Positions 58,886 to 61,727 of a DNA stretch of 64,000 nucleotides are shown in pieces (positions within the stretch are counted from its first letter, which is position 1; every line of letters starts with the position of its first letter). The notes beneath the pieces were generated by a model that was not told where the DNA came from, did not search any database, and worked only from the letters and a program-made list of their open reading frames with translations. The translations under genes and the position numbers were made by a program. Source of the DNA: Nocardioides pini (lineage in GTDB: Bacteria > Actinomycetota > Actinomycetes > Propionibacteriales > Nocardioidaceae); NCBI RefSeq assembly GCF_026712185.1, contig NZ_JAPPUX010000004.1:620001-684000 (forward strand), given 5' to 3'.

Positions 58886-59152
58886 TCACGCGAGGGAGAG
58901 GAAGAGCTTCTCCATCTTCTTCACGTCGATGCTGTCGATGTCGCCGTCGCCCGCGACGAGGCACTGCTGGAGCCCGGACGCCACGATCGCGAAGCCGGCG
59001 CGGTCCAGCGCCTTGGACACCGCGGCCAGCTGGGTGACGACGTCCTCGCAGTCGCGGCCCTCCTCCAGCAGGCGGAGCACACCGGCGAGCTGACCCTGCG
59101 CGCGCTTGATGCGGTTGACGACGGGCGTCATCTGGTCGGGATCGAGCTGCAT
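58886..59152 (-). CDS. cstR: CsoR/CstR-family repressor, thiol-sensing type
   Basis: An 88-residue all-helical DNA-binding protein. The conserved cysteines are C35 (GRDCEDVV) and C64 (GLQQCL). In copper-sensing CsoR the pattern is Cys, His and Cys (about 36, 61, 65). Here the His position is Gly60, so copper binding is unlikely and the pair resembles CstR, which forms di- or trisulfide bridges with reactive sulfur. The divergent operon encodes a persulfide dioxygenase, supporting this. Two palindromic operators lie in the 135-bp divergent gap. Confidence 0.88.
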   Translation of the reverse strand: MQLDPDQMTPVVNRIKRAQGQLAGVLRLLEEGRDCEDVVTQLAAVSKALDRAGFAIVASGLQQCLVAGDGDIDSIDVKKMEKLFLSLA

Positions 59153-59234: not shown

Positions 59235-59250
59235 ATACCCCCTAGGGTAT
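59235..59250. promoter_or_regulatory. CstR-type operator 2
   Basis: ATACCCCCTAGGGTAT has perfect 6-bp arms (ATACCC/GGGTAT) and is 32 bases from operator 1, a spacing of about three helical turns. It lies closer to the dioxygenase start. Confidence 0.78.
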
Positions 59251-59287: not shown

Positions 59288-60679
59288 ATGACCCACCCGA
59301 CGACCGACCTGACGGTCCTCGTGATCGACACCCCGACGCTCGGCGACCGCAGCTACCTCGTGCACGACGGCGAGGTCGCGTTCGTGGTCGACCCCCAGCG
59401 CGACATCGACCGCGTCCTGGCCCTCCTCGACGAGCACGGCGTGCGACTCACGCACGTCTTCGAGACCCACATCCACAACGACTACGTCACCGGCGGCCTC
59501 GCCCTCGCCGAGCGCACCGGTGCCCAGTACCTCGTCAACGGCGAGGACGACGTCTCCTTCTCCCGCACCCCCGTAGCGAACGGAGACGTCGTCGAGGTGG
59601 GTGGACGTATGCGCGTCACTGCGCTGGCGACCCCCGGCCACACGTTCACCCACCTCTCCTACGTGATCACCGACGCCGCGGCCGACGGCGACCAGCAGGT
59701 CGGCGTCTTCTCGGGCGGATCACTGCTCTACGGGGCGACCGGTCGCCCGGACCTGCTCGGGCCCGAGCACACCCACGACCTCGTGCACCACCAGCACGCG
59801 TCGGCACACCGGCTCGCCGACCTCCTCCCCGACGAGGCGGAGGTCTATCCCACCCACGGCTTCGGCTCCTTCTGCTCCGCGACCCAGTCCGACGCGTCGT
59901 CGTCGACGATCGGCCGCGAGAAGCAGTCCAACCCCGTCCTCACCCAGGACGAGCAGACCTACGTCGAGGAGCTGCTGGCCGGGCTCGGCCCCTGGCCGGC
60001 CTACTACGCCCACATGGCCCCGGCCAACGCCGCCGGCCCCTCCGAGCCCGACCTGTCACCTCCCGCCGTCGCCGACGCGACCGAGCTGCGGCGCCGCATC
60101 GAGGCCGGCGAGTGGGTCGTCGACCTGCGCAACCGCACGGCCTTCGCCGCCGGGCACGCCCCGGGGACGCTCAACTTCGGACTCGACGGCGGCTTCGCCA
60201 CCTACCTGGGCTGGCTCATCTCCTGGGGCACCCCGCTGACGCTGCTCGGCGAGACCGCCGATGACGTCGCCGAAGCCCAGCGCGAGCTGGTCCGCATCGG
60301 CATCGACCGCCCCGCAGCACACGCCACCGGCGGGCCCGAGGACTGGAGCGACCGCCCGCTCAGCTCCTTCGCCACCGCGACCTTCGCCGACCTCGCCCAG
60401 GTGCGGCACCACCGCGAGGTCGTCGTCCTCGACGTACGACGCGCCGACGAGCACGACGCCGCTCGCATCGCCGGTGCCGTCAACATCCCGCTCCACGAGC
60501 TGTGGGACCGCCTGGCCGAGGTGCCGGCCGGCGAGGTCTGGGTGCACTGCGCCGGTGGCTACCGCGCGTCCGTCGCCGCCTCCGTGCTCGACGCGGCCGG
60601 TCGCTCCCTCGTCGCCATCGACGACTCCTTCGACAACGCCGAGCCGGTGGGTCTCCACCTCGTGGGGCCGGCGGCGTGA
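59288..60679 (+). CDS. MBL-fold persulfide dioxygenase fused to rhodanese domains (CstB/Blh-like)
   Basis: A 463-residue fusion. Residues 1-250 are a metallo-beta-lactamase domain with the iron-site motif ETHIHNDYVTGG (H61, H63, D65). About 265-350 is a rhodanese domain without an active cysteine (VVDLRNRTAFAAGHAPG). About 365-455 is an active rhodanese domain with HCAGGYRA holding the catalytic cysteine. This MBL - inactive rhodanese - active rhodanese order matches CstB, which turns persulfides into sulfite or thiosulfate. The GTGA overlap with the next gene couples it to the exporter. Confidence 0.93.
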   Translation: MTHPTTDLTVLVIDTPTLGDRSYLVHDGEVAFVVDPQRDIDRVLALLDEHGVRLTHVFETHIHNDYVTGGLALAERTGAQYLVNGEDDVSFSRTPVANGDVVEVGGRMRVTALATPGHTFTHLSYVITDAAADGDQQVGVFSGGSLLYGATGRPDLLGPEHTHDLVHHQHASAHRLADLLPDEAEVYPTHGFGSFCSATQSDASSSTIGREKQSNPVLTQDEQTYVEELLAGLGPWPAYYAHMAPANAAGPSEPDLSPPAVADATELRRRIEAGEWVVDLRNRTAFAAGHAPGTLNFGLDGGFATYLGWLISWGTPLTLLGETADDVAEAQRELVRIGIDRPAAHATGGPEDWSDRPLSSFATATFADLAQVRHHREVVVLDVRRADEHDAARIAGAVNIPLHELWDRLAEVPAGEVWVHCAGGYRASVAASVLDAAGRSLVAIDDSFDNAEPVGLHLVGPAA

Positions 60680-61506
60680 TCGAGATCGTCCTCGCCGTCG
60701 TGGCCGGCGCGCTCATCGGGCTCAGCCTCGGGGCGCTCGGTGGCGGTGGCTCGATCCTGGCCGTCCCGGTGCTGCTCGCCCTCGGCCAGTCAGCCACCCA
60801 GGCCACGACCGGCTCGCTGGTCGTCGTCGGGGTCACCTCGCTCGCCGGGGCCGTCACCGCGCGGCGTGCGGGCACCGTGCTGCTGGCGCGAGGGGCCGCC
60901 TTCGGCGCCGTCGCCATCGGCGGTGCCGTCGCCGGTGCGCACCTGTCCGCGACGGTGCCCGAACCGGTCCTGCTGGCCGCCTTCTCCGCCCTGATGCTCC
61001 TCGTCGCCGGCCTGATGGCGGCGCGGCAGCTGCGGAGCCGACGCGCGGCCGGTCCCTTGGACCCGGCCGTCGAGCGTCCCGGGCTCGACGACCCGATCAT
61101 CACCTTCAGCCCCACCTTCATGTGCCAGTGCCCGCGCGCGCTCAAGGTCGTGGTGACCGCGACCGTCGTGGGCCTGCTGACCGGCTTCCTCGGCGTCGGT
61201 GGCGGCTTCCTCGTCGTGCCCGCGTTGGTCCTCGCTCTGGCCCTGCCGATGCGCTACGCCGCCGGCACCTCGCTGGTCGTCATCACCATCACCAGCGCGG
61301 CCGCTCTCGCCACCCGGGCCGGAGCGGGCATCGCCCCGGACTGGGGCCTCGTCGTCGCCCTCACGCTGACCTCCATCGTCGGCTCCGTCGTCGGCGCGCG
61401 GGTCGCGGCGCGGGCCGACACCGCGCGCCTGTCCGCCGCGTTCACCGGGCTGGTCCTCGCCGTGGCGGCGTACGTCGCGGTGCAGGCGTTGCCCGCCCTC
61501 GTCTGA
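60676..61506 (+). CDS. TauE/SafE-family sulfite/sulfur-compound exporter
   Basis: A 276-residue membrane protein of about eight helices in two halves. Each begins with the glycine-rich family motif: LGALGGGGSILAVPVL near residue 17 and FLGVGGGFLVVPALV near 170. A loop with FMCQCPRALK carries two cysteines. It probably exports sulfite formed by the adjacent dioxygenase. The start is GTG at 60676, overlapping the dioxygenase stop by GTGA. Confidence 0.9.
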   Translation: MIEIVLAVVAGALIGLSLGALGGGGSILAVPVLLALGQSATQATTGSLVVVGVTSLAGAVTARRAGTVLLARGAAFGAVAIGGAVAGAHLSATVPEPVLLAAFSALMLLVAGLMAARQLRSRRAAGPLDPAVERPGLDDPIITFSPTFMCQCPRALKVVVTATVVGLLTGFLGVGGGFLVVPALVLALALPMRYAAGTSLVVITITSAAALATRAGAGIAPDWGLVVALTLTSIVGSVVGARVAARADTARLSAAFTGLVLAVAAYVAVQALPALV

Positions 61507-61544
61507 TTCCCTCCCACCACCCACTGCAACAGAAGGAGCCCTCC

Positions 61545-61727
61545 ATGTGCCGACCGACCACCTGCAAGACCTGCGGCAAGACCACCTGGGCCGGCTGCGG
61601 CCAGCACGTCGCCCAGGTCAAGGCCGGCGTGCCCGCCCAGCAGTGGTGCAACGGCCAGCACAGCGCGGCCGAGAAGGAGGCCAGCGGCTCCAGCGGCGGC
61701 CTCCTGTCCCGGCTGTTCGGCCGCTGA
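61545..61727 (+). CDS. 60-residue cysteine-rich protein of the reactive-sulfur operon
   Basis: The reading frame starts at ATG 61545 behind AGAAGGAG and encodes MCRPTTCKTCGKTTWAGCG, then a VPAQQWCNGQHS motif and a GSSGGLLSRLFGR tail. Cysteines fall at 2, 7, 10, 18 and 35, with His at 21 and 39, giving a C-x2-C...C-x2-H zinc-ribbon-like layout. It lies 38 bases after the exporter gene with no terminator between, so it belongs to the operon. Short Cys-rich proteins with this start are widespread in actinobacteria and, to my knowledge, uncharacterised. A sulfur carrier or metal-thiolate role is conjecture. Confidence 0.85.
   Translation: MCRPTTCKTCGKTTWAGCGQHVAQVKAGVPAQQWCNGQHSAAEKEASGSSGGLLSRLFGR

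Follow-up and report, generated by a model that had tools for sequence, protein, structure and literature searches.

What would a 60-residue, cysteine-containing protein contribute as the last gene product of an operon that otherwise resembles a persulfide-detoxification circuit? The question is raised by an open reading frame at positions 61545–61727 (forward strand) of the window, the whole 64,000-nucleotide stretch of Nocardioides pini DNA analysed here. A preliminary description had proposed it as a real gene, easily missed by automated calling, whose product could handle sulfane sulfur or bind zinc.

The small gene and its operon

The frame translates into exactly 60 amino acids with Cys at positions 2, 7, 10, 18 and 35 and His at positions 21 and 39, and a Shine-Dalgarno-like AGAAGGAG (61531–61538, forward strand) was read 6 nt ahead of its ATG, in agreement with the five cysteines, two histidines and intact ribosome site described previously. 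A 52-row alignment of relatives contains 12 invariant columns and, when ten close relatives are compared over their first 35 codons, differences are most frequent at third positions, which together place the frame beyond chance. With relatives also present in 145 of the 345 genomes sampled from the class and 27 of 246 across the phylum, the frame is, as judged from its sequence and as initially proposed, a genuine gene. It is also readily overlooked, as had been anticipated: 48 of the 60 listed plasmid records have no annotated feature under the match, in a PLSDB gene table that is itself incomplete.

The gene is present as a single copy in the genome of the window. More widely, the peptide pattern matched at least 591 genome-contig stretches, at least 297 of which encode relatives; record titles of the best 80 of these, which were retained, are all actinobacterial (80/80), as are the genera, where named, of 69 plasmid records carrying a relative. 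One further relative lies within a single 24 kb record named 'Bacteriophage sp.' (MT835623.1, 19139–19273; H61). In addition, records named as five different genera (L037, L043, L044, L045 and L046) share, at 97–100% identity, a segment of ~10 kb (6 kb in L044) that spans CsoR, the small gene and a methyltransferase-like gene, which reflects either recent transfer or assembly contamination.

Upstream in the window, a CsoR-family repressor is encoded on the reverse strand (58886–59152; Pfam PF02583, E 2.7e-21; ligand signature C-G-C); it retains two Cys 29 residues apart and lacks the copper-ligand His, as in CstR-like, persulfide-type regulators. Between this gene and the divergent operon, pattern searching located ATACCCCCTAGGGTAT (59235–59250, unstranded), an exact match to the published Streptomyces coelicolor persulfide-CsoR site ATACCn6GGTAT (PMC7533328). 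This pattern occurs once in the window and once in the whole genome, as does a reversed control pattern in the genome. The first gene downstream (59288–60679, forward) encodes a metallo-beta-lactamase-fold and rhodanese protein (PF00753 and PF00581), a putative type III persulfide dioxygenase, as its domain layout resembles that of ScPDO. A TauE/SafE-type sulfite exporter gene follows (60676–61506, forward; PF01925, E 5.9e-40), whose GTG start, assigned from sequence reading, overlaps the dioxygenase stop, and 38 bp separate its own stop from the start of the small gene. Placement of the small gene beside the dioxygenase, as in the preliminary description, thus holds for operon membership but not for direct adjacency, since it lies two genes downstream with the TauE-like gene between.

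Regulator type, operator spacing and orphan copies

Neighbouring genes were surveyed at 113 loci (3 kb radius, crude gene calls), with rhodanese-domain genes at 49, CsoR at 40, dioxygenase at 28, TauE at 22, thioredoxin at 10 and MMPL at 9, while 30 of the 113 had none of the tested families within 3 kb. As the 80 retained loci are close relatives, a 27-genome phylum sample provides the fairer estimate; here 15 of 30 members have a CsoR within 4 kb, where copy number and genome size predict 0.11; the genomes themselves are related, so the p-value of this excess is nominal. The His at Cys+25, a copper ligand of copper CsoR, is absent from all 54 CsoR rows near the small gene (some of them duplicates), every one of which has Cys at +29, and is present in 18 of 25 rows from elsewhere in the same genomes. 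Across the 27 genomes, 14 of 21 non-His copies are within 4 kb of the small gene versus 0 of 18 His copies (tallied from 40 matches, one 21-residue fragment being left out). The XYZ metal-binding motif is described in PMC5016687, and PMC7533328 reports that Cys37 and Cys66 of S. coelicolor CsoR, 29 apart, are both required for polysulfide sensing.

Operator spacing separates the same two regulator types. Among loci L276–L335, TACC-N7-GGTA occurs at 37 of 39 His-type CsoR loci and the N6 form at none (0/39), whereas TACC-N6-GGTA occurs at 13 of 21 non-His loci and the N7 form at 1 of 21. This split fits the published copper CsoR sites, TAC-X9-GTA (PMC3902906), together with the one-base-shorter persulfide site; the difference is implied jointly by PMC7533328 and PMC3902906, and the accessible portions of the two contain no explicit statement of it. 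Around the small gene, TACCN6GGTA was counted 123 times in loci L001–L114 versus 1–5 times for spacers of 3, 4, 5, 7, 8 and 9. A neighbour-independent sample of 137 loci (30 from the phylum survey, 27 new from the class survey and 80 taken from among the further places listed in it), comprising 143 distinct genes, has the exact N6 core ending within 100 bp ahead of the start in 49 of 143 cases, mostly 20–60 bp away and orphan copies included; the other spacers gave 0, 0, 1, 2, 0 and 0. A weight-matrix scan (≥10 bits) recovered operators in 47 of 142 upstream stretches versus 6 of 426 random ones, with little gain over the exact pattern.

Homologues standing apart from sulfur genes, an outcome that the preliminary description had set against a sulfur role, are indeed common in the literal sense: by what lies within 1.5 kb, the 143 sampled members divide into 44 with CsoR, 30 with another sulfur gene, 3 with only thioredoxin and 66 with none. 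Yet the promoters of 23 of these 66 orphans themselves contain the persulfide-CsoR operator, which argues that much of the sulfur link runs through a regulator acting in trans. Searching 20 genomes with an orphan plus site (most sites exact, two imperfect, one with spacer 7) for CsoR gave 18 positives, all with a non-His copy (18/18) and seven with non-His copies exclusively; in the remaining two, both draft genomes, CsoR was not found. At genome level, a proximal operator was present in 8 of 18 phylum-sample genomes with a non-His CsoR versus 0 of 9 without (Fisher p 0.026), and in 18 of 34 versus 1 of 15 genomes of a class list that was partly operator-selected, where CsoR was typed by its sequence or, in some cases, by bit score and one genome was omitted. 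Eight other genomes have 3–9 exact sites each, one of them directly ahead of the small gene, and 20 regions around other sites in five genomes contain rhodaneses, a dioxygenase-rhodanese protein, FAD-rhodaneses, thioredoxins, CsoR, a second small gene and many unassigned genes. The small gene is therefore very probably a previously unrecognised member of the regulon of a persulfide-sensing (CstR-like) CsoR, a conclusion drawn from sequence comparison, and the suggested connection to sulfane-sulfur metabolism is upheld by operator, regulator type and neighbours alike.

Exceptions to this pattern fall into several kinds. For 43 of the 143 members, no tested neighbour lies within 1.5 kb and a proximal operator is absent as well; some of these have a low-scoring (non-His-like) CsoR 3–6 kb away and some are in CsoR-free genomes. 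At 20 loci lacking the tested sulfur genes, one neighbour each was scanned; these were of mixed kinds, among them MFS, amidohydrolase, protein kinase and methyltransferase genes, and shared no theme. The small gene occurs without any CsoR in the genome in seven small genomes of family f86 and in one more, and its retention there suggests that the protein may be useful beyond an induced response. In two of the seven (L220 and L228), the flanks match those of relatives whose small gene adjoins CsoR and rhodanese genes, which would fit loss of the sulfur genes around the small gene, or failure to acquire them. Within one family of small genomes (L211, L231, L228 and L220), the stretch between common flanking genes is in some cases a CsoR/rhodanese/small-gene module and in others just the small gene. 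Conversely, one large-genome genus encodes a close dioxygenase homologue (E < 1e-140) in 4 of 7 genomes and a convincing small gene in 0 of 7, weak matches, some with stop codons, having been discounted.

Ligand conservation and predicted structure

Conservation was assessed in 235 distinct members collected with a pattern that fixed C7, C10, an aromatic residue at 15, G17, C18 and H21, and nothing else. All 235 have a start codon at position 1 (ATG 226, GTG 9) with Cys2 right behind it, and all have Cys35 followed two to four residues later by Cys or His (CxC 87, CxxH 82, CxxxH 58, CxH 4, double 4). Such exchange of Cys for His behind C35 is the signature of a metal ligand. The family thus combines the pairs C7/C10 and C18/H21, imposed by the pattern, with C35 and the interchangeable Cys or His behind it; this layout across the 235 members supports the zinc-type ligand arrangement envisaged at the outset, and the protein probably binds zinc. 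Methionine aminopeptidase removes Met ahead of Cys, and Cys2 would probably be N-terminal after such processing. Most members (196/235) are long forms, 166 of the 196 ending in a basic-hydrophobic tail, and 39 of 235 are short (46 amino acids or less); long and short copies lie side by side at several loci. A second, tail-less copy of 37–44 residues was seen ~200–640 bp downstream of the long copy in L006, L009, L018, L026, L035, L069 and others.

The protein falls outside every family of Pfam, NCBIfam and PHROGs, and a PDB sequence search gave no match. The best Pfam hit, DUF5651 (PF18892; residues 5–36, E 0.039), scored 14.3 bits, well under the curated cut-off of 27 bits, and membership was rejected, as was membership of the TusA, DsrE and rhodanese sulfur carriers, which gave no match in Pfam or NCBIfam at E ≤ 1. 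An AlphaFold2 model from a 60-row alignment (mean pLDDT 81.9, pTM 0.53) comprises a hairpin (3–6, 13–16), a helix (19–26) and less certain C-terminal helices. Foldseek returned no PDB match at E ≤ 0.001, some zinc fingers being among the weak, non-significant matches, and VIA-align returned none with Z ≥ 2. The motif strings were absent from the literature searched, in which subscription papers are thinly represented, and its titles and abstract openings show no such protein.

Proposed role, alternatives and known systems

We hold with moderate confidence that the last gene of this persulfide-responsive operon encodes a zinc-thiolate protein that most likely serves as a sulfane-sulfur acceptor or relay. 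The divergent CsoR-type repressor would control the dioxygenase-rhodanese protein, the sulfite exporter and the small protein; reactive sulfur would modify the two Cys of the repressor, freeing the operator and allowing the small protein to be made. The product is predicted to fold into a compact unit of hairpin and helix and to bind zinc through its Cys/His set, with one likely site formed by C7, C10, C18 and H21 and a second, three-ligand site by C2, C35 and C37, H38 or H39. It is this second site that would most likely accept sulfane sulfur and relay it among small thiols, rhodanese domains and thioredoxin, and the basic-hydrophobic tail may dock the protein to the membrane or a partner. 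Acceptance of sulfane sulfur by the small protein, taken alone, is a tentative proposal that falls a little short of evenly balanced. The broader possibility is that sulfane sulfur is carried by a small metal-thiolate protein of a new kind, in which a Cys made N-terminal by Met removal and held at a three-ligand zinc site takes up persulfide sulfur and passes it to rhodanese and thioredoxin partners, and that persulfide sensing across actinobacteria has repeatedly and independently brought this family under its control; this is speculative and unlikely in its entirety.

Ligands as fully conserved as these would also be in keeping with a protein in which zinc is purely structural. In that case zinc would serve the fold only, and the helix and tail would bind and modulate a partner, be it a rhodanese fusion, membrane protein or nucleic acid, with no sulfur transfer, the gene still belonging to the persulfide regulon. 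The C-x2-C ... C-x2-H layout with its modelled hairpin and helix and the conserved tail of the long forms favour such an adaptor, but neither profile nor fold searches gave a significant zinc-finger match, and a second Cys set with a fixed Cys2 exceeds the needs of one zinc finger; we regard it as somewhat unlikely. Storage of zinc, or its protection from precipitation by sulfide, by a metallothionein-like buffer that does not handle sulfur would be consistent with the seven potential ligands conserved within a stretch of about 39 residues and with an operator common to sulfide-detoxification genes. However, typical metallothioneins have more thiolates than this protein, and zinc-uptake genes are not prominent among the recurrent neighbours in a tally that was not a family-level search for them, making this reading improbable. 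Most improbable of all is a copper-responsive small Cys protein like mycobacterial MymT, under a copper CsoR/RicR. A CsoR-family regulator does adjoin the gene and the operators of the two CsoR kinds look alike, but no neighbouring CsoR row has the copper His, spacer 7 precedes only 2 of 143 members within 100 bp (spacer 6, 49 of 143) and several genomes with operator and gene have solely non-His CsoR; regulator ligands and operator spacing thus led us to reject a copper context.

Persulfide detoxification has so far been known through enzymes, sensors and exporters. A conserved small protein controlled by the same sensor, unnamed and often unannotated, would add to these a part that had been overlooked, and it is a candidate participant in persulfide handling; the one-base spacer difference (N6 persulfide, N7 copper) offers a simple handle for mapping actinobacterial persulfide regulons. 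Compared with zinc ribbon and treble-clef proteins, the small protein has a similar hairpin and helix in its model and two knuckle-like pairs (C-x2-C and C-x2-H), but differs in its invariant Cys2, in a third Cys/His pair past residue 34 and in the lack of a significant profile or fold match. The sulfane-sulfur circuit of S. coelicolor consists of ScCsoR (SCO0620), ScPDO (SCO0618), the TauE protein SCO0619 and the rhodanese Rhod (SCO0621) (PMC7533328); the present operon resembles it in the gene set next to the small gene, the operator letters and the two-Cys regulator type, and differs in the small protein itself, which is absent from the description in the Results of that paper. The accessible text on CstR-type repressors likewise names no small Cys/His protein in their operons, and describes persulfide-sensing CsoR relatives that control rhodaneses and sulfite exporters, as here (PMC10318464).
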